Source: Pseudomonadota bacterium
GTDB lineage: Bacteria > Pseudomonadota > Gammaproteobacteria > Acidiferrobacterales > Acidiferrobacteraceae
Assembly (NCBI GenBank): GCA_021795715.1
Contig: JAJYPD010000002.1
Coordinates: 1-64,000 of the forward strand
Direction of reading: 5' to 3'
DNA: 64,000 nucleotides
Below, piece after piece: positions 33,906 through 49,036 of this stretch. The notes below the pieces were generated by a model, which saw only the letters and a program-made list of their open reading frames with translations, searched no databases and was not told where the DNA came from. Made by a program: the position numbers and the translations under genes. Each line of letters starts with the position of its first letter. Position 1 is the first letter of the stretch.

Positions 33906-35057
33906 TCAATCGGCGCCCGATGTGTCCGGGGCATCCGGCGGCCTCTCTGTCGGTATGCGGATCCAGAAGGTGGCTCCGCGGTCGGGATTGTTGCGGGCCC
34001 CGATCGATCCCCTGTGCAGGGTCACAAGCTCCTTGCAGATGGCAAGGCCAAGGCCCGTGCTGTGCTCATGCCCCGTCGGCTTGTTGCTGAGTGTGGCGTA
34101 CGGCTGAAAGAGCTGGGTGATGTCTTTCTGTGAGAGCCCCGGCCCCTGGTCGCTCACTTCGCAGGTTATGAAGCCGTCTGCCGCCCATGTCGAGATGATG
34201 ATGACCGTGCTGCGCGGGCTGAACTTGATGGCGTTGCCGATCAGGTTGTCGAGTATCTGCAGGATGCGCAGTTCGTCGGCTTCGATGCGGGGGATGCCGC
34301 TTGCAAAGCGCAGACCGATCTCGATGTCTTTGTTGTGCCCGTAACCTGCGTTGTGGGCGACCGCCTGGCGCACGAGCGCACCGAAGTCGGTCGGCGAAAT
34401 CCGCAGGCGCACGCGTCCCGCCCGCATCGCCCCCACGTCGACCAGTTCCGAGATGATCTTCTGCATGTAGCGCGCGCTGTCGATCAGGAGATCGAGCGCG
34501 GAGACATCGTCTGCGGATACCGCGGCGCCGGGCACCATGGAGAGGCGAAGTTGCTGGGCCACATCGAGCATCAGCATGATCGGCTTTTTCAGGTCGTGGC
34601 TTGCGGTCCGCAAAAAGTGGTCGTTGACGTCCTTTAGGCCCTTTAGTGTGATCTGGGTGTGCACGCGCGCCCGCACCGTGCTGGCATCGAAGGGCTTGGT
34701 CACGTAGTCATTGGCCCCGTCGCGCAGTGCCGCGACGATCATCTCCGCGTCCGCAGATCCGGAAATGATGATGACGGGCAGATTGAGCGGCGAGTGCTCC
34801 TGGCGGATCTGCCGCAGCAGTTCGAGTCCGCCGATGACACCGGGCAGCCGGATGTCGAGAAGGATCAGGTCGAAGGTGCCGGCGGCCATGAGCCGGTCCG
34901 CCTCCAGGGCATCGCAGGCGAGTGTCACCTGATAGCCGTCGCGTTTGAGTCCGATGGCGAGCGCGCCGCGCAAGCCCTCGTCGTCGTCGACGACGAGTAC
35001 GGACTCGCGTTTCAGGTCGGCTGTGCGCGTGACCTCGGATAACGCTGTTGGCATCAT
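33906..35057 (-). CDS. Hybrid two-component protein: receiver followed by histidine kinase
   Basis: A soluble, 383-residue protein with the receiver first: VLVVDDDEG, phospho-acceptor Asp in LILLDIRLPG, and Lys in YVTKPF (about 20-135). Then comes HisKA with the H-box TASHDLKKPIM (His about 160) and HATPase_c with DNLIGNAIKFS, DQGPGL and STGLGLAICKE. No membrane segment or output domain is seen. ATG 35057 follows GGGAAGG. It is transcribed away from the first kdp operon, sharing a 247-bp region that holds the sigma54-type promoter. A link to potassium control is possible but not shown. Confidence 0.88.
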   Translation of the reverse strand: MMPTALSEVTRTADLKRESVLVVDDDEGLRGALAIGLKRDGYQVTLACDALEADRLMAAGTFDLILLDIRLPGVIGGLELLRQIRQEHSPLNLPVIIISGSADAEMIVAALRDGANDYVTKPFDASTVRARVHTQITLKGLKDVNDHFLRTASHDLKKPIMLMLDVAQQLRLSMVPGAAVSADDVSALDLLIDSARYMQKIISELVDVGAMRAGRVRLRISPTDFGALVRQAVAHNAGYGHNKDIEIGLRFASGIPRIEADELRILQILDNLIGNAIKFSPRSTVIIISTWAADGFITCEVSDQGPGLSQKDITQLFQPYATLSNKPTGHEHSTGLGLAICKELVTLHRGSIGARNNPDRGATFWIRIPTERPPDAPDTSGAD

Positions 35058-35247
35058 CGCCTTCCCGGTTTTTATACCCGAAATCATAGCCAACGATCCC
35101 GCCTGCGCAAAGGGCGGCGGGGCGGGCGCTGTTGCGCGCGCCCTTAAGTTGCGCCACCGCACGCCCGCAGCCAAGGGGCCTGTCATGTCCCCAGGGCTTC
35201 CCCTTGCGCACCCGCCAACTGCCTGAAAAGTCACGGCATCTTCTACC

Positions 35248-35263
35248 CGGCACAAATTTTGCT
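35248..35263 (+). promoter_or_regulatory. Sigma54 (-24/-12) promoter of the first kdp operon
   Basis: The sequence C-GGCAC-AAATT-TTGC-T has GG and GC separated by exactly 10 bases and matches the sigma54 consensus TGGCAC-N5-TTGC at all but the first base. The predicted start of transcription near 35274 leaves about 30 bases before ATG 35305, with GGGAGG as the ribosome site. The nearby gene at 47858 encodes a sigma54 activator, supporting the call. Confidence 0.7.
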
Positions 35264-35304
35264 TTAGAGCGGCGCGAGAGGGTGTCCCGGAGAGGGAGGT
35301 ACAC

Positions 35305-35397
35305 ATGGCGTGGCTTTATTTGTTTGTGTTGCTCGTATTTTTTGTGATGTCGATCGGCTTGGTGGAATGGCTCGAGCGGTTGCGGAGGATGCGATGA
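35305..35397 (+). CDS. Tiny membrane protein at the head of kdp operon 1
   Basis: Thirty residues, MAWLYLFVLLVFFVMSIGLV then EWLERLRRMR: one hydrophobic helix followed by a short positively charged amphipathic tail. A strong ribosome site (GGGAGGT) precedes ATG 35305. Its stop overlaps the kdpF start (ATGA), so it belongs to the operon. It is not KdpF, which is the next ORF. A similar-sized ORF precedes kdpF in the second operon (40205). The function is unknown; a small regulatory or stabilising subunit of the pump is a reasonable guess. Confidence 0.7.
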   Translation: MAWLYLFVLLVFFVMSIGLVEWLERLRRMR

Positions 35398-35486
35398 GTC
35401 TCTTTGCGTGGTTCGGACTGGTGGTGGGTGTGGGGATCGTTCTCTATCTCTTTGTCTTTCTGCTGAATCCGGAGAAATTCCTATGA
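35394..35486 (+). CDS. kdpF: KdpF subunit, first operon
   Basis: Thirty residues, one membrane helix, ending YLFVFLLNPEKFL. The L-L-x-P-E-x-F end is the mark of KdpF, the lipid-like stabilising peptide of the Kdp complex. It overlaps the tiny ORF upstream (ATGA) and kdpA downstream (ATGATG). Confidence 0.85.
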   Translation: MSLFAWFGLVVGVGIVLYLFVFLLNPEKFL

Positions 35487-37240
35487 TGCCGGTGATGGAA
35501 CTGGACACGGCCTTGCTCGTGGCGGCCATCGCCCTTGGCTGGCCGCTTGGCCGTTACATGGCCGGTGTTTACGGCACGGAACCCTTCTGGGCTCGTCGCG
35601 CGGCGGCGCCGCTTGAACGGGCGATCTATCGCCTCTGCGGGATTTGCGCGCAGGAGGAGATGGACTGGAAGCGTTATGCCGTGGCCCTGCTGCTGTTCAA
35701 TCTCGCCGGTGCGGTCTTTCTGTACGCACTCATGCTGGCGCAGGGACATTTGCCGCTGGATCCCGAAGGCTTGCGGGGCGTCGGGGCGGGTCTTGCGTTC
35801 AATACCGCCGCAAGTTTCGTGACCAATACGAACTGGCAGGCCTACGCGGGGGAGACGACCATGAGCTATCTCACGCAGATGCTCGGGCTTGGCGTGCAAA
35901 ACTTCCTGTCGGCGGCCACCGGCATCGTCATCGCTGTCGCCATGATCCGCGGCATCGCGCGCAACAAGGCCCCGGGGCTTGGCAACTTCTGGGTGGACAT
36001 GACACGCACGGTGCTGTATGTGCTTGTGCCGCTTGCCCTGGTGTTTGCCGTGATCCTCATGGCGCAGGGGGTGCCCGATACGCTCGGGTCCTATGTACAG
36101 GCGCACTTGATCGCACCGTTTACGAGCGGCAAGGCCGTTGTTACGCATCAGGTGATCGCGCTTGGGCCGGTGGCGTCACAGGAAGCGATCAAGGAACTGG
36201 GCAACAACGGCGGAGGTTTCTTCAATGCCAATTCCGCGCACCCCTTCGAGAATCCGACAGCCCTGACCAATTTTCTGGAAATGGTGGCGATGCTCGTGAT
36301 CCCAACGGCGCTCGTGTTCATGTTCGGGCGGATGGTGCGTGACGACCGGCAGGGATGGGCACTTCTTGCGGTCATGCTGCTGTTTTTCATTCCGCTGTCG
36401 CTTGCGAGCGCCCATTTCGATCTGGCCGGCAACCCGGCGTTGCGCGCGCTTGGTGTCACTCAGGCGCATGCGCCGGCGCTGGCTGGCGGGGGCAACATGG
36501 TCGGGGTCGAGGATCGCTTCGGCGTGGGCGCCTCGACTTTGTTTGGCACGGTGGCGACGGCCACGTCGACGGGTGCGGCCAACTGCGCCTACGACTCGTT
36601 CATGCCCCTGTCGGGCCTTGTCAATCTGTTCGACATGCAACTGGGCGAGATCATCTTCGGTGGCGTCGGCAGCGGGCTGGCGACGATGCTGGCGTTTGTG
36701 ATCTTTGCGGTCTTCGTGGGCGGCCTCATGATCGGCCGTACGCCCGAATATCTCGGCAAGAAGATCGAGTCCTTCGAGATCAAGATGGCCTCGCTGTCGA
36801 TCCTGATCATGCCGCTTCTGGTGCTGATCGGCACCGCCATCGCAGTGGTGACGGCAGCCGGGCGGGCCGGCGTCTTCAATCCCGGGCCCCATGGTTTCAG
36901 CGAGATCCTCTACGCCTTCACCAGTGCTGCCAACAACAACGGCAGCGCCTTTGGCGGGCTTGCCGCCGACAGCCATTTCTACAACGTGGCGCTCGCCCTT
37001 TGCGTGCTGATCGGACGTTACTGGACCTATCTGCCCCTGCTCGCCCTGGCCGGATCACTCGCCCAGAAGGCGCGCATTCCGGCGAGCAGCGGGACGCTCG
37101 CCACGCATACGCCGTTATTCATCGGTCTAATCGCCGGGGTCGTGCTGCTCGTCGGCGCCCTCAACTTTTTTCCAGCCCTGTCGCTTGGGCCGATTGTGGA
37201 ACACATGATGCGCCTGCCGTCCCATCCGGTTGTGCGCTGA
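35483..37240 (+). CDS. kdpA: Potassium-transporting ATPase subunit KdpA, first operon
   Basis: K+ channel-like subunit of the high-affinity KdpFABC pump in the inner membrane. 585 residues, about ten helices. The four pore/selectivity repeats are recognisable: SFVTNTNWQAYAGE, NNGGGFFNANSAHPFENPT, ATSTGAANCAYDSF and TSAANNNGSAFGG. ATG 35483 overlaps the kdpF stop; a second ATG follows immediately. Sequence differs at many positions from the second KdpA (for example NNGGGFFN here against TNGGGFFG there), so the two operons are not a recent duplication. Confidence 0.97.
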   Translation: MMPVMELDTALLVAAIALGWPLGRYMAGVYGTEPFWARRAAAPLERAIYRLCGICAQEEMDWKRYAVALLLFNLAGAVFLYALMLAQGHLPLDPEGLRGVGAGLAFNTAASFVTNTNWQAYAGETTMSYLTQMLGLGVQNFLSAATGIVIAVAMIRGIARNKAPGLGNFWVDMTRTVLYVLVPLALVFAVILMAQGVPDTLGSYVQAHLIAPFTSGKAVVTHQVIALGPVASQEAIKELGNNGGGFFNANSAHPFENPTALTNFLEMVAMLVIPTALVFMFGRMVRDDRQGWALLAVMLLFFIPLSLASAHFDLAGNPALRALGVTQAHAPALAGGGNMVGVEDRFGVGASTLFGTVATATSTGAANCAYDSFMPLSGLVNLFDMQLGEIIFGGVGSGLATMLAFVIFAVFVGGLMIGRTPEYLGKKIESFEIKMASLSILIMPLLVLIGTAIAVVTAAGRAGVFNPGPHGFSEILYAFTSAANNNGSAFGGLAADSHFYNVALALCVLIGRYWTYLPLLALAGSLAQKARIPASSGTLATHTPLFIGLIAGVVLLVGALNFFPALSLGPIVEHMMRLPSHPVVR

Positions 37241-37249
37241 GGAGAGATC

Positions 37250-39322
37250 ATGAGTGTGATGAAGACCCATGCCGCCCATCTGGAATGGGGCCAGCTGGCG
37301 CAGGACGCGGTGGTCGGCAGCCTGAAGAAACTCGTGCCGCAGCATCAGATCCGCAACCCCGTCATGTTCGTCGTCTACGCCGGCGCATGGCTCGTTCTGG
37401 CGCTGTGGATCCGGGATCTCGTCGACAGACGCGACGCTTTGGCGGCGTTCACCGGGACACTCGACGTCTGGTTGTGGCTGACCCTGCTCTTTGCCAATTT
37501 TTCCGAATCCCTGGCCGAGGGCCAGGGCAAGGCACAGGCGGCGAGTCTGCGCCAGGCGCGCCAGGACGTGCAGGCCCGGCGCCTTTCCGAGGCGCGTCAC
37601 GACGCATCCTCTGAGCGGGTGCCGGGTACGGCGTTGCGTCCCGGGGACTTCGTGCTGGTCGAGGCGGGCGATGTCATGCCCGCTGATGGCGAAGCCGTGC
37701 TGGGCGTGGCCTCAGTCGACGAAAGCGCCATCACCGGCGAGAGCGCGCCGGTCATCCGCGAGGGCAGTGGCGACCGTACGGCGGTGACGGGCGGCACCAA
37801 GGTCTTGTCCGACTGGCTGGTGGTGCGGGTGACCAGCGCGCCAGGCGACACTTTTCTTGATCGCATGATCCGGATGGTGGAGGGTGCGTCGCGGCGCAAG
37901 ACGCCCAACGAGATCGCGCTGGGCATCCTGCTCGTGGTGCTGACGCTCGTCTTTCTGGTCGTGACCATGACCCTCTATCCGTACTCGTGGTATGCCGTCC
38001 ATTATGCCGTGCACAGGGGCCATGTCGTTGGTATCACGGTGCTGGTGGCGCTGCTTGTGTGCCTCATTCCGACCACTATCGGTGCCTTGCTGCCGGCCAT
38101 TGGCATCGCCGGCATCATGCGCCTTATGCGTGCCAACGTGGTGGCCACATCCGGCCGCGCCATCGAGGCGGCGGGCGACGTCGACGTCCTGCTCCTCGAC
38201 AAGACGGGTACCATCACTTACGGCAACCGGCAGGCGGCCGGATTCCATCCGGCGCCGGGTATCGCAAAAGAGGAACTCGCGGCCATGGCGCGGCTTGCGT
38301 CGCTGGCCGACGACACCCCGGAGGGGCGCAGCATCGTCACGCTCGCCCAGCAGCTCTTCCCAAGGGAGGCGCAACCGCTTGGCGCGGATGCGGTGCTAAT
38401 CGCCTTCACGGCGGAGACACGCATGAGCGGCGTGGATCTGGACGGCGGCCGGCTTCCGATCCGCAAGGGCGCGCCGGATGCCATGCGCGCATGGATCGGA
38501 CAGCATGGCGGCGCGTGGGCGCAGGAGCTCGAGATGACCATCCAGCTCGTCGCCAGCCGCGGCGCCACGCCGCTTGTGGTGTGTGCCGATACGCGGGCTT
38601 TGGGCGTTGTCGAGCTGAAGGACATCGTCAAGAAAAACATCCGCGAGCGGTTCGCCGATTTGCGGCGCATGGGTATCCGCACCGTCATGGTCACCGGGGA
38701 CAATCCGCTGACCGCGCAGGCGATCGCCGCCGAGGCGGGCGTCGATGATTTCATCGCCGAAGCCAAGCCCGAAGCCAAGCTGGCCCGTATACGGGCCTTT
38801 CACGCCGAGGGCCATATGGTGGCCATGACCGGCGACGGTACGAATGACGCGCCGGCGCTCGCGCAGGCGGACGTCGCCCTGTGCATGGCGAGCGGCACCC
38901 AGGCGGCGCGCGAGGCCGCGAACATGGTCGATCTCGATTCCAATCCAACCAAGCTTCTCGAGATCGTGCACATCGGCAAGCAGCTGTTGATGACCCGCGG
39001 GGCGCTGACGACTTTTAGTGTGGCCAATGACGTGGCCAAGTATTTCGCGATCATTCCGGCCGCCTTTGTCGGCACGTATCCGGCGCTGTCTGCGCTGAAT
39101 GTGATGGATCTGAGTTCGCCGCGCCATGCGATTCTCGCCGCCGTCATCTTCAATGCCGTGGTGATCCCGTTTTTGATCCCGCTGGCGCTCAAAGGGGTGC
39201 GCTCGCGCGCGGCTTCGGCGAAGAGTCTGTTGCGCCGCAATATCTGGATCTATGGGGTCGGCGGGCTGGTGACACCCTTCATTGGCATCAAGCTCATCGA
39301 TGTTCTGCTGACCTGGATGTAG
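37250..39322 (+). CDS. kdpB: Potassium-transporting ATPase subunit KdpB, first operon
   Basis: ATP-hydrolysing subunit, 690 residues. Motifs: [10 protein letters not shown] (includes the serine that is inhibited by phosphorylation in E. coli), [15 protein letters not shown], the phosphorylated Asp in [12 protein letters not shown], and [21 protein letters not shown]. It starts 9 bases after kdpA with GGAGAG. The last helices match KdpB. It is followed by kdpC after 8 bases. Confidence 0.97.
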
Positions 39323-39330
39323 GAGGATTC

Positions 39331-39972
39331 ATGATGCATGACCTGAAGGCGGCAACGATACTGCTGCTGTTTCTGGCGGCCCTTACGGGCCTTGTCTATC
39401 CCTTGGCCATGACGGGCATCGGCCGGGAGGTCTTCCCCGCCCGCGCCGGCGGTTCGCTCATGCGTGTCGGCGGGCGGGTCGTCGGGTCGCGCCTGATCGG
39501 CCAGTATTTCCGCGGCAACGGATATTTCTGGAGCCGGCCGTCGGCGACTGCGCCGGTCCCCTACAACGCCGATGGCTCCTCACCCTCGAATCTGAGTCCG
39601 GACAACCCGGTCTTGCTGCGGCACGTGGGTGCGCGCGTCAAGGCGCTGCGCGCAGCGGATCCGGGCGCCCGCGGGCGGGTTCCCGTCGATCTCGTGACAT
39701 CCTCGGGCAGCGGTCTCGATCCGGACATCAGCCTGGCGGCGGCGCGCTACCAGCTCGACCGCGTCGCGGCCTGCACCGGCATCGCCAAAAGCCGGCTGCA
39801 GGCCTTGCTGGCCCGGTACACGAGCCGCCCGTTCGCCGCATTCATGGGGGAGCCGGTGGTCAATGTGCTTGCGGTCAATCTCGCCCTAGACCGCCTGAGG
39901 GCCCGGCATCGGCCCCCCGGGGGCGGCGCGCGGGGGATGTGCCGCCGCACCCCGGTCTCCGGCCGGATGTGA
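39331..39972 (+). CDS. kdpC: Potassium-transporting ATPase subunit KdpC, first operon
   Basis: Single-span subunit assembling the Kdp complex; 213 residues. The N-terminal helix is followed by GSRLIGQYF, WSRPSATA and the signature TSSGSGLDPDISLAAARYQ, and the conserved late motif EPVVNVLAVNLALD. The last ~20 residues are Gly/Arg-rich and longer than in the second copy. AGGAGG precedes ATG 39331. Confidence 0.96.
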   Translation: MMHDLKAATILLLFLAALTGLVYPLAMTGIGREVFPARAGGSLMRVGGRVVGSRLIGQYFRGNGYFWSRPSATAPVPYNADGSSPSNLSPDNPVLLRHVGARVKALRAADPGARGRVPVDLVTSSGSGLDPDISLAAARYQLDRVAACTGIAKSRLQALLARYTSRPFAAFMGEPVVNVLAVNLALDRLRARHRPPGGGARGMCRRTPVSGRM

Positions 39973-40389: not shown

Positions 40390-42117
40390 ATGACGGCAAA
40401 CGGATTCTGGCAAATCGCTCTGATTCTTGCGGTCGCCTTCGCTCTCAGTGTGCCGTTTGGCCGTTATCTCGCGCGCGTGTTCCGCAACGAGCGGACACGG
40501 CTTGACCCGTTGATGGACCCCGTGGACCGGCTGCTTGGCCGTATCGTCGGCCGGCGCACCCTCGGCATGCCGATGGGCTGGAAGGAATATGCCATCTCCA
40601 TGCTCGTCACCAATGGACTGATGGGGCTCCTGATCTATCTGATCCTGTCCGGGCAAGGCCTGTTGCCGCTCAATCCACTGAAGTTTCCCGGCCTCAATCC
40701 CTTTCTCGCCTTCAATACCGCAGCCAGCTTCATCACCAACACCAATTGGCAAAACTACAGCGGCGAGACGACCCTGTCGCTGTTTAGCCAGATGGCGGCC
40801 ATCACCTTTGCGATGTTCGCGGCGGCGGCGACCGGCCTGGTCGTGGCCATCGCATTTTTCCGCGCGCTGGCCGCACCGGCCGACGGCGGCCGCAATCTCG
40901 GCAATTTCTACCAGGATTTCATCCGCGCGCTGACCCGGGTCCTTTTGCCGTTGTGTCTGGTGATCACACCCGTTCTGGTCTGGCAGGGGTCGCCCGAGAC
41001 GCTGCACGGATTGGCCGTCGCCCATCTGGTGCAAGGCGGCGTGCAACGCATTCCGCTGGGCCCCGTCGCCGGCCTCGAGACCATCAAGCAACTCGGTACC
41101 AACGGGGGCGGCTTCTTCGGTGCCAACTCCGCGCACCCCTACGAAAATCCCACACCCCTGACCAATGTCATCGAAATCCTGCTGATGATGCTGACGTCGC
41201 TGTCTTTGGTGGTGACCTTTGGCATCATGGTGGGTCAGCGGCGGCTGGCGCGGGTGATGTATACGGTCATGGCGCTGATGCTCGTGGTGGCCATCGGTGT
41301 GGCCGTGCATGCCGAGCAGGCCGGCACGCCGGTGCTGGCCGGCAGCGGGCTCATGATCCATCCCGGTCATGGCCAGATGGGTGGCAATATGGTGGGCAAG
41401 GAGACGCGCTTTGGCATAACAGACAGCGCCCTCTTCAACACCGTAAGCACCGCCTTTACCACGGGCAGCGTCAATTCGGCGCTCGACAGCTACACGCCTC
41501 TTGGCGGAATGGTGTCGCTTGTGCAGATGATGTTGAACTGTGTTTTTGGCGGCAAGGGTGTCGGCACGCTGAATTTCCTCATGTATGGCATCTTCGCGGT
41601 ATTCATCGCCGGTCTCATGGTGGGGCGCACGCCGGAATTTCTCGGCAAGAAGATCGAGCGCCGCGAAATCGTGCTGGCCGCTCTGGCGCTGCTCGTCCAT
41701 CCGCTCATCATTCTGCTGCCAACCGCCTGGGCGCTCGCCAGCCCCGGCGGCGTGGCCGCACTGGGCAACACGGCGTCCCATGGCTTGTCCGAGATCCTTT
41801 ATGCCTTCACCTCGGCGGCCGCCAACAATGGCTCGGCCTTCGCTGGCCTCAATGCGAACACGCCTTGGTACAACACGGCCCTCGGTCTGGTCATGCTGTT
41901 GGGACGGTACGTGTCCATCATTCTGATGCTGGCCGTCGGCGGATCACTGGCGGCAAAGCCCGCGGTACCCTCGACGATAGGCACCCTGCGGACCGATACC
42001 GCGCTGTTTGGCGGGTTCTGGTTCGCGACCATCATCGTCGTGGGTGCGCTGACCTTCCTTCCGGCCCTCGTACTGGGACCGCTCGCCGAATTCTTCCTGT
42101 TGTATCCGCACGGCTGA
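40390..42117 (+). CDS. kdpA: Potassium-transporting ATPase subunit KdpA, second operon
   Basis: 575 residues, about ten helices. Selectivity-filter repeats: SFITNTNWQNYSGE, TNGGGFFGANSAHPYENPT, STAFTTGSVNSALDSY and TSAAANNGSAFAG. These are closer to the common bacterial KdpA pattern than the first copy. Same K+ uptake role. ATG 40390 is the family start, three bases after kdpF. Confidence 0.97.
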   Translation: MTANGFWQIALILAVAFALSVPFGRYLARVFRNERTRLDPLMDPVDRLLGRIVGRRTLGMPMGWKEYAISMLVTNGLMGLLIYLILSGQGLLPLNPLKFPGLNPFLAFNTAASFITNTNWQNYSGETTLSLFSQMAAITFAMFAAAATGLVVAIAFFRALAAPADGGRNLGNFYQDFIRALTRVLLPLCLVITPVLVWQGSPETLHGLAVAHLVQGGVQRIPLGPVAGLETIKQLGTNGGGFFGANSAHPYENPTPLTNVIEILLMMLTSLSLVVTFGIMVGQRRLARVMYTVMALMLVVAIGVAVHAEQAGTPVLAGSGLMIHPGHGQMGGNMVGKETRFGITDSALFNTVSTAFTTGSVNSALDSYTPLGGMVSLVQMMLNCVFGGKGVGTLNFLMYGIFAVFIAGLMVGRTPEFLGKKIERREIVLAALALLVHPLIILLPTAWALASPGGVAALGNTASHGLSEILYAFTSAAANNGSAFAGLNANTPWYNTALGLVMLLGRYVSIILMLAVGGSLAAKPAVPSTIGTLRTDTALFGGFWFATIIVVGALTFLPALVLGPLAEFFLLYPHG

Positions 42118-42127
42118 CCGGGGGCGC

Positions 42128-44197
42128 ATGAGCGAAATCACGCACAGGACCGATCGCAAGGCCCAGGCCTACCAGGCGCAGGCAGGCGGCTTGATCCAGC
42201 GGGCGCTGTGGGAATCCTTGCGCAAGTTCGATCCGCGCGTGCAAATCCGCAATCCGGTGATGTTTGTCGTCTGGCTGGGCATGTGGCTGACCTTCCTGCT
42301 CGCCTTTGACCCGGGCCTGTTTGGCCGGGCGCCCGAGGGCGCAGGATACAACGGCGCGGTTGCGGGAATTCTGTTTCTGACGGTGTGGTTCGCCAATTTC
42401 GCCGAGGCCCTGGCCGAGGGGCGGGGGCGGGCGCAGGCCGACGCCTTGCGCCAGACCAAGAGCGACGTGTTGGCGCGGCGCGTCAAGCCCGATGGCACCT
42501 TCGAGCTGGTGGCCGCCGGGGCTTTGCGCAAAGGGGATCGGGTGCGGGTCGAGCGCGGCGATGTCATTCCGACCGACGGAGAGATCCTCGAGGGCATCGC
42601 GTCGGTCGACGAATCGGCCATCACCGGCGAATCGGCGCCGGTCCTGAAGGAGCCCGGTACCGACATGTTTTCGACGGTGACGGGCGGCACCAAGATCCTG
42701 TCCGACTGGCTGGTGTTCAAGGTGTCGGCCGATCCCGGCCAGACCTTCCTGGATCGCATGATCCATCTCGTCGAAGGGGCGAAGCGGCAGAAAACGCCCA
42801 ACGAAATCGCACTCACCGTTCTGCTCGCCGTGCTCAGCCTCATCTTCCTCGTGGTGGTGGCGACTTTGAAGCCGCTGGCGGCATTCCTGCACATCGATCT
42901 TGCGGTCTCCACCCTGGTGGCGCTGCTTGTCGCGCTGATGCCGACTACGATCGGCGCGCTGCTGTCTGCGATCGGGATTGCCGGCATCGACCGCGCCACC
43001 CGCTTCAATGTGCTGGCCATGTCCGGCCGCGCGGTCGAGGCGGCCGGTGACGTGCAGACACTGATGCTCGACAAGACGGGCACGATCACCATGGGCAACC
43101 GCCAGGCCACCGAGTTCATCGGTCTGCCGGGTTTCGAAGACACGGCCGTCGCGCAGGCCGCCATGGCGGCGTCCTGGTTCGACACCACGCCCGAGGGCCG
43201 CTCGATCGTGTCGCTTGCGATCAGCAAGGGCGCAAAGCGCGAGACTTCGTGGGACCAGGCGCAAGGGCTGGAATTCAGCGCCGAGACGCGCATGAGCGGC
43301 ACCAACCTGGCCGACGGCACACGCCTGCGCAAAGGGGCGGTGGCCGCGGTCGCGCGGTTCGTACAGGAAAACTTCAAGACCAGCATTCCGCCTGAACTGA
43401 AGGATGCGGCGGAGGCGGTGGCGCGCAAGGGAGCCACCCCGCTTGCGGTCGCTTTGGATGGCACCCTCGTCGGCGTCATTGCCTTGTCGGACGTGTTGAA
43501 GCCCGGCATGCGCGAGCGCTTTGATTACATGCGCACCCTCGGCATCCGCACGATCATGGTGACCGGCGACAATCCGATCACGGCGCGGGTCATCGCCGAA
43601 CAGGCCGGAGTCGACGATTTCGTGGCGGAAGCCAAGCCCGAAGACAAGATCCGGGTGATCCGGTCGGAACAGGCCAAGGGGCGCCTGGTCGCCATGACCG
43701 GTGATGGTACCAACGACGCGCCGGCGCTGGCGCAGGCCGATGTGGGGCTCGCCATGCATTCGGGGACGGTGCCGGCCAAGGAGGCCGCCAACATGATCGA
43801 CCTCGATTCCGATCCCACCAAGCTGATCGACGTCGTGGCCATCGGCAAGCAGCTGCTCATCACGCGCGGGGCCCTGACGACGTTTTCCATCGCCAACGAT
43901 GTCGCCAAGTATTTCGCCATGTTGCCGGCCATGTTCATGCGCTCGCTGCCCGAGATCGGCGCACTCAACATCATGCACCTGGCGACGCCGGAGACGGCGG
44001 TGCTGTCCGCGCTCATTTTCAACGCCATCATCATTCCGATCCTGATTCCGCTTGCGCTGCGTGGCGTGCGTTTCCTGCCAAGCGGCGCCGATACGCTGCT
44101 TGCGCGCAACATCCTGATCTATGGTCTCGGCGGGCTCGCCGTTCCTTTCATCGGCATCAAGGCCATCGACATGGTCTTGCATCTGTTCTGGCACTAG
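42128..44197 (+). CDS. kdpB: Potassium-transporting ATPase subunit KdpB, second operon
   Basis: 689-residue catalytic subunit with [28 protein letters not shown], the phosphorylation site [12 protein letters not shown] and [21 protein letters not shown]. It starts 10 bases after kdpA. The GNRQA stretch after the phosphorylation site and the ETRMSG nucleotide-domain motif are shared with the first KdpB, but flanking segments differ. Confidence 0.97.
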   Translation: MSEITHRTDRKAQAYQAQAGGLIQRALWESLRKFDPRVQIRNPVMFVVWLGMWLTFLLAFDPGLFGRAPEGAGYNGAVAGILFLTVWFANFAEALAEGRGRAQADALRQTKSDVLARRVKPDGTFELVAAGALRKGDRVRVERGDVIPTDGEILEGIASVDESAITGESAPVLKEPGTDMFSTVTGGTKILSDWLVFKVSADPGQTFLDRMIHLVEGAKRQKTPNEIALTVLLAVLSLIFLVVVATLKPLAAFLHIDLAVSTLVALLVALMPTTIGALLSAIGIAGIDRATRFNVLAMSGRAVEAAGDVQTLMLDKTGTITMGNRQATEFIGLPGFEDTAVAQAAMAASWFDTTPEGRSIVSLAISKGAKRETSWDQAQGLEFSAETRMSGTNLADGTRLRKGAVAAVARFVQENFKTSIPPELKDAAEAVARKGATPLAVALDGTLVGVIALSDVLKPGMRERFDYMRTLGIRTIMVTGDNPITARVIAEQAGVDDFVAEAKPEDKIRVIRSEQAKGRLVAMTGDGTNDAPALAQADVGLAMHSGTVPAKEAANMIDLDSDPTKLIDVVAIGKQLLITRGALTTFSIANDVAKYFAMLPAMFMRSLPEIGALNIMHLATPETAVLSALIFNAIIIPILIPLALRGVRFLPSGADTLLARNILIYGLGGLAVPFIGIKAIDMVLHLFWH

Positions 44198-44206
44198 GAG
44201 GCCTGT

Positions 44207-44785
44207 ATGTGGCGCCAAACGATGGGTAGCGCGCTGCGACTGACGGTGCTCGTCTGGCTTTTGTGCGGGCTTGGGTATCCGCTGCTGGAAGTGGGCATAA
44301 GCGACCTGGCCTTTCCGGCGGCGGCCAACGGCAGCCTGGTGCGCGTCGATCATCGTATCGTGGGGTCGCGGCTGATCGGCGAGCGCTTTACCGGTCCGAT
44401 GTGGTTCAAGGGGCGGCCATCGGCCACTGGCGACAACCCCATGCACTCCGGTGCGTCCAATCTCGGTCCGTTGAGCCGCCGGTTGCGTGATCATCTGTGG
44501 GCACGGCGCGCACAGCTTGTGCGGCGGCATCCGTCTTTGGCGGCCAGGCGCCTGCCAGCCGACATGATCACGACTTCGGGTTCGGGTCTCGATCCGGACA
44601 TCAGTCTTGCCAATGCCGATCTCCAGGCACCCTGGGTGGCCCGGGCGCGCGGTCTGCCGCTGGCCCGCGTCCAGGCGCTCATCGCCCATGCGGCCCACGG
44701 CCGCTGGCTCGGTCTTTTCGGTGAGCCCCGCGTCAACGTGCAGGTCCTGAACTGGACACTGGCCGCCGCGTTGGGGCGCCGTTGA
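44207..44785 (+). CDS. kdpC: Potassium-transporting ATPase subunit KdpC, second operon
   Basis: 192 residues with an N-terminal helix, VGSRLIGERF, KGRPSATGDNP, the signature TTSGSGLDPDISLANADLQ, and GEPRVNVQVLNWTL near the end. AGGAGG precedes ATG 44207. kdpD begins 93 bases after the stop, with its own possible promoter between. Confidence 0.95.
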   Translation: MWRQTMGSALRLTVLVWLLCGLGYPLLEVGISDLAFPAAANGSLVRVDHRIVGSRLIGERFTGPMWFKGRPSATGDNPMHSGASNLGPLSRRLRDHLWARRAQLVRRHPSLAARRLPADMITTSGSGLDPDISLANADLQAPWVARARGLPLARVQALIAHAAHGRWLGLFGEPRVNVQVLNWTLAAALGRR

Positions 44786-44878: not shown

Positions 44879-46045
44879 ATGGATACCACGAATCAGGGCC
44901 CGTCGCCGGAAGACGACATTCTCAAGACGCTCAAGGAGCGGCCGGCCGGTCGTCTGAAGATTTACATCGGTTCAGCGGCCGGCGTCGGCAAGACCTACCA
45001 GATGCTGCTCGAAGCGCAGCGCCTGCGCAGTGAAGGGGTCGATATCGTCCTTGGCTATATCGAGACCCACAAGCGCGCCGAGACCCAGGCGCAGGTCGGC
45101 GATCTCGAGCAGATCCCGTTACGCGACGTGCGTTACCAGGATCGCGTATTTCAGGAGATGAATCTGCCGGCGATTCTCGGGCGTCATCCCGAAGTCGTTG
45201 TCGTCGACGAGCTTGCGCATACGAACATTCCCGGAGTCGAGCATCCCAAGCGCTACCAGGATGTCGAGGACATATTGAAGGCCGGCATCAATGTCATCAG
45301 CGCCGTCAACATCCAGCACATCGAAAGCCTGAACCCCTATGTCGAGCGCCTGACGGGGGTCAAGGTGCGCGAGACCGTGCCCGATCGCATCCTCGGCATG
45401 GCAAGCGAGATCATCAACATCGATCTCAGTGTCGAGGACCATCGCGAACGGTTGCGCCGCGGCAAGATCTATCCGAGTGACAAGATCGAAAGCGCGCTGC
45501 GCGGGTTCTTTACGCCGGAAAATCTTGCCGCCATGCGCGAGATGGCGCTGCGCGAGGTGGCGAGCAAGGTCGAATACCAGACGGAAGAGCAGCGATTGCT
45601 CCGCGAAGCAGGCCCGCTGCGCCGCCCTGACCGGGTGGTCGTGTGTCTTGGCCCCGACCATGACGTGAATGTCGCCCTCCTGCGCCGCGGCGCGCGCATC
45701 GCCGGCCGCCTGAACGCCGACTGGTTCGCCGTCACGGTGGTGCGTCCGGATCTTGCGCCGAGCAAGGCGCTGAGCCCGGTCCGTCACGAATACCTGCGGC
45801 TTGAGCGCCTGGCGGAAGATTTGGGCGCCCAATTCAAGGTGCTCGAGTCCACCAGTGTCCTGGACGCGCTTGTCCGGTTCGTCGAAGAGCACGGCATCAC
45901 CATGGCGATTTTCGGCAAGGCCCGTCACGTGGGCTGGCGGCTGCGGCTGTTCAAATGGCTGACCCTGGAATTCCTGAACCACACGGACGGGGTCGATGTG
46001 CAAATCGTTGATACGAGCGAGCGTGAGCCGCAGACGCGCGCCTAG
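44879..46045 (+). CDS. kdpD: KdpD-type sensor lacking its membrane and kinase domains
   Basis: 388 residues: the KdpD domain with Walker A IGSAAGVGKTYQML (about 31-44), VDELAHTNIPG and HPKRYQDVEDIL, then a Usp-like domain (about 255-370) beginning DRVVVCLGPDHDVNVALLRRGA. Standard KdpD is about 900 residues and continues with four transmembrane helices, GAF, HisKA and HATPase. Here the gene stops cleanly (TAG) after the Usp domain, and a separate kinase starts 7 bases later. Short KdpD sensors are known in some bacteria. The protein probably senses potassium, c-di-AMP or ionic state and must signal in trans. Confidence 0.9.
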   Translation: MDTTNQGPSPEDDILKTLKERPAGRLKIYIGSAAGVGKTYQMLLEAQRLRSEGVDIVLGYIETHKRAETQAQVGDLEQIPLRDVRYQDRVFQEMNLPAILGRHPEVVVVDELAHTNIPGVEHPKRYQDVEDILKAGINVISAVNIQHIESLNPYVERLTGVKVRETVPDRILGMASEIINIDLSVEDHRERLRRGKIYPSDKIESALRGFFTPENLAAMREMALREVASKVEYQTEEQRLLREAGPLRRPDRVVVCLGPDHDVNVALLRRGARIAGRLNADWFAVTVVRPDLAPSKALSPVRHEYLRLERLAEDLGAQFKVLESTSVLDALVRFVEEHGITMAIFGKARHVGWRLRLFKWLTLEFLNHTDGVDVQIVDTSEREPQTRA

Positions 46046-46052
46046 GTGGGAT

Positions 46053-47858
46053 ATGTTTCATTCTCTCAGTAATCGTTTGATCATCGCCATCCTGGCCGTA
46101 TTGGCCCTTCTCGGCACACTGGGCGGCCTGTTGATCACGCGCATCGGCCAGCTCGATGATGCCACCAGCCGCATTCTCGCGGCTAATGTGCAGATCACAC
46201 ACACCATCAACGGCATGGACCAGGCGATGGCCGCCTATCGGCAGGCCGGTACCAGCGGCGCGCGCGGGCGTGCCGATGCACAGTTCGCGACAGTGCTGCG
46301 CTCTGCGAAGATCATCATGACGGCACCGGCGGCCCAGGCGGAGCTTGGGCGCGTGGCGCAGGCGTGGGGTGCGTATAAACAGCATCCGTCACGCGCTGCG
46401 TTCCTGGCGGCACAGACGCGGTTGCATGTCCTGCAGGCGGCGGAGAGACGCGTCACGGGGCATCAGGAACACAGGGCCATTCACGCCATACGCGATCTCA
46501 CGCTGTTTGCGACTTTGGGTCTCATCGTGGCGCTGTTCGTGATGCTGGTGTTTTCGCTTTGGGTGGTGCGCCTGATCGTGCGGCCCCTGCGTCATCTGGC
46601 GCACAGCATCCACGATCTGAGTCCGGCGGGCGCCCACCGCGAACTGGAACGGTACACGCTGTCGGAATTCGACGACGTGACGCGCGAATTCAACGGTCTG
46701 CTGCGCCGCCTGGAAAAGTACGAGCGCGGCAACGTCGACAAGCTGGTGTTCGAGAACGCGAAGATCGACGCGCTTATCAATTCGATCGACGACGGTCTCA
46801 TCCTGCTCGATCGGCAGGGCAAGATCCTGCATGTCAATTTCATGGCCGGCATGCTCTTGCAGACGGAGCCGGGCGAACTTCTCGGCCGCAACATCAACGA
46901 CCTCAACATCGCCACGCGTTTTTACATCAATCTGCGCAACGCACTGGGCTCCTTGCGGCGCGAGGACCAGGAGGAGCCCCAGTACAGCCGCAACGAATTC
47001 TCGCTGACCATCCGCGGACGCCTCCACTCCTACATCCTGAAGACCGTGCCGTTTCGCGACAAGCGGCGCAGCACGATCGGCCTGATCGTTGTTTTGCAGG
47101 ACGTCACCGAGCTGCGCCATGCGGAACACCAGCGCACGCAGCTGCTTGCCACGCTTTCGCACGAATTGAAGACGCCGCTCACCAGCCTGAGCCTCAGCAT
47201 CGGCAGCCTCTATGAGACGGCAGAGCAGGACCATTATCCGCATCATGTCCGCCAGCTTCTCGATGTCGGCAAGGAGGAGATCTACCGGTTGACCCAGCTG
47301 GTGGAGGATCTCCTGGATGTGTCCCGCCCCGACGCGATCCGGACGAGCATCGATCTGAAAACCTTCGAGCTCTGCGAATTCCTGCGTCGCCAGGCCCACT
47401 CCTTCCGCCTGCAGGCCGACCTGCAGGATGTGGATCTGGTGCTGTCGTGCGTCCCGGATCTGACGATCAATGCCGATCCGGTCAAGCTTGGCTGGGTGTT
47501 CAACAATCTGCTGTCGAACGCATTGCGCCATACTCCGGTGCACGGTCAGGTGATGCTTGCGGCGAGGCCCGAGGAGGGCAAGGACCAGGTCCTGATCGAG
47601 GTGGCAGACACCGGACGCGGAATCCCGCCGGAGGAGCTGCCGCAGATATTCGAGTGGTTTACGCAGGGCGCTGCGGGATCCGGGTCGGCCGGTATGGGGC
47701 TTGCCATCGTCCGCGAGATGGTCGAGGCACATGGCGGGCGGATCGAGGTGCAGTCGCAGCTGCATCAGGGCACCCGCTTCCTGATCACCCTGCCGCACCG
47801 CCCGACGGCGGCCAGTCTGCCATTGCAACCCACGGTGCCCGCGCCAGATGGTGGTTGA
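46053..47858 (+). CDS. HAMP-PAS sensor histidine kinase in the kdp locus
   Basis: 601 residues. TM1 (about 8-28), a periplasmic sensor loop of roughly 120 residues, TM2 (about 148-172), HAMP (IVRPLRHLAHSIHDL onwards), PAS (about 245-365, including SIDDGLILLDRQGKILHVN), the H-box TLSHELKTPLTSLSL, the N-box NNLLSNALRHT, then DTGRGIPPEEL and AGMGLAI. None of KdpD's own four-helix membrane unit is present. ATG 46053 was chosen because the TM helix starts right after it. The stop overlaps the response-regulator start (TGATG-type), so the two are a pair. It probably supplies the kinase missing from the short KdpD. Confidence 0.93.
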   Translation: MFHSLSNRLIIAILAVLALLGTLGGLLITRIGQLDDATSRILAANVQITHTINGMDQAMAAYRQAGTSGARGRADAQFATVLRSAKIIMTAPAAQAELGRVAQAWGAYKQHPSRAAFLAAQTRLHVLQAAERRVTGHQEHRAIHAIRDLTLFATLGLIVALFVMLVFSLWVVRLIVRPLRHLAHSIHDLSPAGAHRELERYTLSEFDDVTREFNGLLRRLEKYERGNVDKLVFENAKIDALINSIDDGLILLDRQGKILHVNFMAGMLLQTEPGELLGRNINDLNIATRFYINLRNALGSLRREDQEEPQYSRNEFSLTIRGRLHSYILKTVPFRDKRRSTIGLIVVLQDVTELRHAEHQRTQLLATLSHELKTPLTSLSLSIGSLYETAEQDHYPHHVRQLLDVGKEEIYRLTQLVEDLLDVSRPDAIRTSIDLKTFELCEFLRRQAHSFRLQADLQDVDLVLSCVPDLTINADPVKLGWVFNNLLSNALRHTPVHGQVMLAARPEEGKDQVLIEVADTGRGIPPEELPQIFEWFTQGAAGSGSAGMGLAIVREMVEAHGGRIEVQSQLHQGTRFLITLPHRPTAASLPLQPTVPAPDGG

Positions 47859-49036
47859 TGGCCAACATCCTCATCGTCGATGACGATCGTCAGATCCGTT
47901 TGACCCTTTGCATTCATCTCGAACGCAAAGGCTACCGGGTCCGTGATGTGGCCTCGGTGTCGGCTGCCTTGAACGCCCTCAAGGAATATCACGCCGACAT
48001 CGTCCTGAGCGATTTGCGCATGGAGAAGGAAAGCGGTCTGGAACTCCTTGCCGCCGTCCGCAACGAACACCCCGACCTTCCCGTGATCATCATGACCGCC
48101 TATGGCACCATCGAGAAGGCCGTCGCGGCGATCCGCCTTGGCGCGGCGGATTTCGTGGTCAAGCCGTTTTCGCCTGCGGAAATCGAGCAGGTTTTGGTGC
48201 GCAACATGCACATTCGCGGGCTGCAGGCGGAAAACCGCAGTTTGCGGGCTGCGCTTGGACAGGGTGAGATGCTGACGTGCTCGCCCGCTTTGGGGCGTGT
48301 CCTGGAGATGGCCGCCCGCTTTGCGAAAAGCGAGGCGACGCTGTTGATTCTTGGAGAAAGCGGCACCGGCAAGAGCCTGCTTGCGCGCCACATTCACCGG
48401 ATCAGCCACAGGGCGCACCAGCCGTTCATCGATGTCAATTGCGCAAGCCTCGCCACGAACCTGCTGGAAAGCGAACTGTTCGGCCACTGCCGGGGCGCCT
48501 TTACCGGTGCCGTCAAGGACAAGCCTGGCCGTCTGGAGGCGGCTCATCAAGGGACACTTTTTCTCGACGAGATCAGCGAAGTGTCCATCGATGGCCAGGC
48601 GAGGCTGCTGCGCTTCCTGCAGGACAAGGTGTTCGAGCGGGTGGGCGACACAAAGACACGGGCCGTGGATACGCGGATCATCGCTGCGAGCAATCGCGAT
48701 TTGCGCAGCCGGGTCGCGGAACACGCTTTCCGGGAAGATCTCTACTATCGCCTGAACGTCGCCGAACTGACCATGCCGCCACTGCGGGAGCGACCCGAGG
48801 ACATCACGCTCCTGACCGGCCACTTTCTCGCGCAGGCGGCGGCGCGCAACGGTCTTTCATCGGTCCCCGCGGTGGATGGCGAGGTATCCGCTCTTTTCGC
48901 CCGCTACGACTGGCCCGGCAATGTGCGCGAGCTCCACAACGTCGTGGAGCGCTGCGTGATCCTTGCGGGTACGGAAACCATTCGTCTTTCGCATCTGCCC
49001 GATCCGTTGCTGCAGTGCGCCGCAAAACCTCTGTGA
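47858..49036 (+). CDS. NtrC-family sigma54 activator without a DNA-binding domain
   Basis: 392 residues. Receiver (1-120): ILIVDDDRQ, Asp in DIVLSDLRME, Lys in FVVKPFSP. AAA+ domain (about 140-365): Walker A LGESGTGKSLLA, the sigma54-contact loop GAFTGAV, Walker B TLFLDEISEV, and arginine-finger region YYRLNV with WPGNVREL. It then ends QCAAKPL only about 20 residues after the AAA+ fold, so the Fis-type HTH of NtrC proteins (normally ~60-80 residues more) is absent. No HTH-like sequence follows in another frame. Such solution-acting activators are known (FlgR of Helicobacter, CtcC of Chlamydia). Likely partner: the kinase immediately upstream. Confidence 0.92.
   Translation: MANILIVDDDRQIRLTLCIHLERKGYRVRDVASVSAALNALKEYHADIVLSDLRMEKESGLELLAAVRNEHPDLPVIIMTAYGTIEKAVAAIRLGAADFVVKPFSPAEIEQVLVRNMHIRGLQAENRSLRAALGQGEMLTCSPALGRVLEMAARFAKSEATLLILGESGTGKSLLARHIHRISHRAHQPFIDVNCASLATNLLESELFGHCRGAFTGAVKDKPGRLEAAHQGTLFLDEISEVSIDGQARLLRFLQDKVFERVGDTKTRAVDTRIIAASNRDLRSRVAEHAFREDLYYRLNVAELTMPPLRERPEDITLLTGHFLAQAAARNGLSSVPAVDGEVSALFARYDWPGNVRELHNVVERCVILAGTETIRLSHLPDPLLQCAAKPL

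Follow-up and report, generated by a model that had tools for sequence, protein, structure and literature searches.

A conserved sigma-54 promoter element apparently governs a kdp potassium-pump cluster whose linked activator lacks a DNA-binding domain

The window analysed here, the first 64,000 nucleotides of contig JAJYPD010000002.1 (assembly GCA_021795715.1) from a bacterium of the Acidiferrobacteraceae, contains two kdp operons in tandem, and the -24/-12 element CGGCACAAATTTTGCT in front of the first is real and almost certainly a working sigma-54 promoter of kdp operon 1, as judged from its letters and those of its relatives. The best explanation overall, which we consider probable, combines this promoter with a potassium-signalled split sensor and with the activator encoded at 47858-49036, which would act from solution.

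Results

Sequence and score of the -24/-12 element

Within CGGCACAAATTTTGCT the GG (35249-35250) and the GC (35261-35262) are spaced by exactly 10 bases, and both GGCAC and TTGC are perfect, just as an earlier note on this DNA had read them. The departures from the consensus TGGCACGNNNNTTGCW are a C for T before the GG and an A for G after GGCAC. Between the predicted transcription start and the first ATG at 35305 lies a leader of about 31 nt, in agreement with the approximately 30 bases estimated in that note. The features of the cluster are listed in Table 1.

Table 1. Predicted features of the kdp region in the window
Feature	Position	Strand	Basis or remark
Receiver-HisKA-HATPase protein, divergent, no output domain	33906..35069	-	Domain scan; homologs in relatives
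IHF-like element CAACTGCCTGAAA	35216..35228	+	About 20-32 bases upstream of -24; two mismatches; conserved columns
Sigma-54 -24/-12 promoter element CGGCACAAATTTTGCT of kdp operon 1	35248..35263	+	PWM rank and family invariance
Predicted transcription start	35274 (about)	+	Placed solely by the -12 position, 12 bases past the C of GC
Ribosome-binding site AGGGAGG of first small ORF	35293..35299	+	Read from sequence
30-aa membrane ORF (MAWLYLFVLL...) ahead of kdpF	35305..35397	+	Also precedes kdpF in relatives
kdpF	35394..35486	+	NCBIfam TIGR02115 over cut-off
kdpA1	35483..37240	+	Homologs in relatives
kdpB1	37250..39322	+	Translation; homologs
kdpC1	39331..39972	+	Translation; homologs
kdpA2, second kdp operon	40390..42117	+	Own leader without sigma-54 element
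kdpB2	42128..44197	+	Translation; homologs
kdpC2	44207..44785	+	Translation; homologs
KdpD sensor, KdpD domain and weak Usp, no kinase	44879..46045	+	Pfam PF02702, 5e-89
HAMP-PAS-HisKA-HATPase histidine kinase	45996..47858	+	Domain scan; true start probably about 46050
Sigma-54 activator, receiver-AAA+-lid, GAFTGA intact, no HTH at end	47858..49036	+	Pfam scan, ortholog comparison

Scoring against a sigma-54 position-weight matrix (PWM), which the earlier note had proposed as a check, gave no refutation. With a matrix built from 29 intergenic sigma-54 sites mapped by ChIP-chip in Salmonella (PMC3844500 Table 3), the element reached 17.7 of 24.3 bits and ranked first among the 128,000 positions on both strands of the window, the runner-up having 13.1 bits. 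Under a first-order Markov null, 0.15 such matches are expected per 64 kb, counting both strands; for leaders of equal length and composition, P = 0.0005. The same scan returned nothing comparable in the leaders of kdp2, kdpD and the hydrogenase operon, where reading by eye had likewise found no match as good. No Rfam elements were found in the window. Counting consensus matches genome-wide says nothing by itself, the simple consensus GGCAYRNNNNNTGCW being found 36 times as against 58 for its reversed control; the case for a promoter comes from score, place and conservation taken together, not from the consensus alone. The genome (2.1 Mb, about 95% complete) carries one copy of rpoN together with at least one activator, as a sigma-54 promoter calls for.

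Conservation of the element in the family

The same element precedes the kdp cluster in 14 of the 15 family genomes in which the interval can be read (contig ends cut it in G003, G009 and G016), and in relatives it usually lies in the stretch that separates the cluster from its divergent neighbour. When the 14 leaders are anchored on the GG, GGCA and TTGCT are invariant and most bases after TTGCT vary; the 170-base stretches around the element are mostly 30-45% alike. This phylogenetic footprint strongly backs the reading as a sigma-54 promoter; the functional promoter proposed in the earlier note is supported by matrix score, footprinting and the presence of rpoN. Among 75 kdp leaders from outside the family, only two weak GG-N10-GC matches reach the lowest family score of 9.9 bits (Fisher p = 2e-13, a descriptive value, the threshold having been chosen after viewing the family and the family members not being independent). 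The one remaining readable genome, G017, carries kdp2 and a regulator gene that falls into two frames; the element was not found there.

The element is also retained in genomes without kdp1 beside kdp2, which suggests that the promoter may be able to serve the rest of the cluster. In G004, from which kdp1 has gone, it stands directly ahead of kdp2 as TGGCACAGAGATTGCT (18.2 bits); in G011, G013 and G014 it lies 0.5-0.8 kb before kdpA2; and in G001 it precedes a decayed kdp1 relic upstream of kdp2, in which the C-terminal KdpC motif is degenerate (SGPDPDIGFATARY vs SGLDPDISLAAARY in the window). The relic occupies L171 12690-13600, between the retained element and kdp2. G004 has a second strong sigma-54 match, TGGCACACTTTGTGCT (18.5 bits), at L172 2331 on the minus strand, downstream of the regulator gene. 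Extra kdpA1-like copies found elsewhere in G007 and G008 (L105 and L091) are without the element. In these two genomes kdpA2 of G007 (L182 7979-9753) and kdpA1 of G008 (L184 5899-7631) are each broken into two frames, which suggests that one copy is decaying or that the sequences contain errors.

The kdp cluster

Small ORFs resembling the one at 35305-35397 stand ahead of kdpF in further kdp operons, including some outside the family. Between kdp1 and kdp2 a simple scan detected no sigma-70 promoter or terminator; the sequence GTGCTAGAAT ahead of kdp2 resembles an extended -10. The KdpD sensor resembles the NCBIfam model KdpD_non_kinase, but falls below its cut-off. The gene next to the promoter was considered as a candidate sigma-54 activator and ruled out, being a receiver-histidine kinase by its domains. 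Most relatives have it close to their kdp cluster, and its product could be an input to the same phosphorelay.

The linked activator and its missing DNA-binding domain

The activator gene closes the kdp cluster, 12.6 kb downstream of the element. The earlier note took a nearby sigma-54 regulator as support; the one linked to kdp has no DNA-binding domain and so is not of the ordinary enhancer-bound kind. Its product retains the receiver, Walker A (GESGTGKS), Walker B, GAFTGA and the arginine finger, and it ends 33 residues past GNVREL, where other activators run on into a helix-turn-helix (HTH); the Pfam scan detected no HTH in it. Fifteen of the 17 other family genomes yielded an ortholog, which adjoins the kdp cluster wherever contigs allow. 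These 15 proteins (L156-L170; 66-88% identity) terminate at one common point, give or take a few residues, all 16 sequences stopping 29-33 residues after GNVREL, and every one of the 16 keeps the phospho-Asp region, Walker A and B, (G/E)AFTGA (EAFTGA in a single sequence) and the arginine finger. The absence of the HTH is thus an old loss and not an assembly error. A frameshift hiding the HTH was ruled out, as the three frames past the stop hold no Fis-type helix and the 15 orthologs end alike.

The genome encodes seven full sigma-54 activator domains in all, and the other six proteins all carry HTH_8. A search of 398 phylum-wide genomes for an orthologous kdp activator outside the family gave only one match at 1e-100, to a protein that has an HTH and is not linked to kdp.

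Discussion

Proposed mechanism

According to the explanation that we favour, sigma-54 RNA polymerase would wait at the element as a closed complex. Under potassium shortage, the split sensor (44879-46045 and the kinase 45996-47858) would phosphorylate the activator, whose AAA+ ring, by means of the GAFTGA loops and ATP, would then open the promoter. Lacking a DNA-binding domain, the activator probably comes to the closed complex out of solution, as has been reported for H. pylori FlgR, and not from a bound enhancer. A role in bending or stabilising the promoter may fall to the IHF-like site at about -58 to -46. Counting against this explanation are the six other activators with DNA-binding domains, which might act at kdp1, as well as the lack of the element in G017 and at the extra kdpA1-like copies of G007 and G008.

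The upstream region and the remaining activators

IHF recognises the consensus WATCAANNNNTTR, and its sites are classically linked to looping from a bound enhancer. The family leaders share a second conserved patch, at about -58 to -46, which fits this consensus within one mismatch in 7 of the 14 at nearly the same spacing, compared with a mean of 0.7 and a maximum of 4 in 500 shuffles; HU/IHF-type genes are present in the genome. Since looping is the classical role of IHF, the site fits a conventional activator better and leaves room for one. The promoter could be a sigma-54 promoter driven by another, HTH-bearing activator (e.g. NtrC-like) bound upstream and assisted by IHF bending, with the HTH-less protein working elsewhere or in mixed hexamers, and the six proteins with HTH_8 would supply candidates. 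Further upstream, however, no inverted repeat or dyad is common to the family leaders beyond chance, and no further column at fixed spacing is strongly conserved back to about -134. The occurrence of the linked activator in most of the family, beside kdp where this can be seen, also speaks against such an arrangement, which we regard as unlikely. The failure to detect an enhancer is consistent with an activator unable to bind one.

KdpE, TTTATA repeats and a possible sigma-70 promoter

No KdpE was recognised in the cluster or in the genome at its approximately 95% completeness, the three OmpR-type regulators found being best described as PhoB, OmpR and CusR-like. Outside the family, the neighbours of kdp are mostly a KdpD and an OmpR-type regulator, and TTTATA/TTTACA (TTTAYA) repeats occur in many of the leaders; none of these repeats was found near the kdp1 promoter. 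Acidithiobacillus-type kdp leaders (L004-L007) have TTTATA repeats, most of them together with TTGCTAG about at the -12 position, a placement hinting at a promoter swap. It also lends some support to the idea that the window has an extended -10 sigma-70 promoter, TTTTGCTTTAGAG, in which the -24 part is incidental. Such a promoter would not account for a GGCA that never varies and lies precisely at the -24 spacing when most bases past TTGCT are variable, no sigma-70-like hexamer pair was found in the leader, and the repeats are missing; we consider it very improbable. A functionless chance match, with which the unremarkable genome-wide consensus counts would agree, is contradicted by the conservation of one location in 14 genomes and by the score gap down to the next match in the window, and deserves hardly any credence.

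Comparison with known systems

Sigma-54 control of kdpFABC with a split KdpD has been described for DVU3334 of Desulfovibrio vulgaris (PMC3333781, PMC4641369). That system and the window have in common a GAFTGA response regulator in the kdp cluster, sigma-54 control, and a KdpD whose sensor and kinase are separate proteins. DVU3334, however, was mapped by DNA binding with reported sites upstream of kdp, and hence binds DNA, whereas the activator of the window has no DNA-binding domain; the window moreover has two kdp operons.

The receiver-AAA+ architecture without HTH matches group 5 of the activators in a 2020 review, exemplified by FlgR and CtcC (PMC7175178), and Helicobacter pylori FlgR has been reported to act without an enhancer (PMC9696931). 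Helicobacter FlgR and Chlamydia CtcC (PMC7175178, PMC9696931, PMC7482065) serve flagellar or developmental genes, whereas the present activator is linked to potassium uptake and its genome also holds the six conventional activators. With the E. coli-type KdpD/KdpE system of kdpFABC the window shares the KdpD sensor domain and the KdpFABC pump, but instead of a recognised OmpR-type KdpE and TTTATA repeats it has a predicted sigma-54 promoter and an AAA+ regulator.

In the openly licensed literature searched, nothing was found on a sigma-54 kdp promoter whose activator is without a DNA-binding domain. As far as that literature shows, a potassium system with such an activator in a genome with six conventional ones is new.

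Implications for the family

Whether this acidophile-related family indeed runs its high-affinity potassium pump through an activator unable to bind DNA, alongside conventional activators (six here), appears to us an evenly balanced question. If it does, specificity would have to come from the promoter, the IHF architecture, a partner protein or low abundance; alternatively, potassium shortage would switch on sigma-54 promoters broadly. An activator without a DNA-binding domain among other activators would make the enhancer-free specificity of sigma-54 activators directly testable. The findings also suggest that regulation has been exchanged in a textbook system: KdpE and KdpE-type repeats accompany related pump operons, whereas a sigma-54 promoter and an AAA+ regulator are found here. 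In this bacterium, a relative of acid-mine microbes, the emergency potassium pump is apparently under the control of a conserved sigma-54 promoter.
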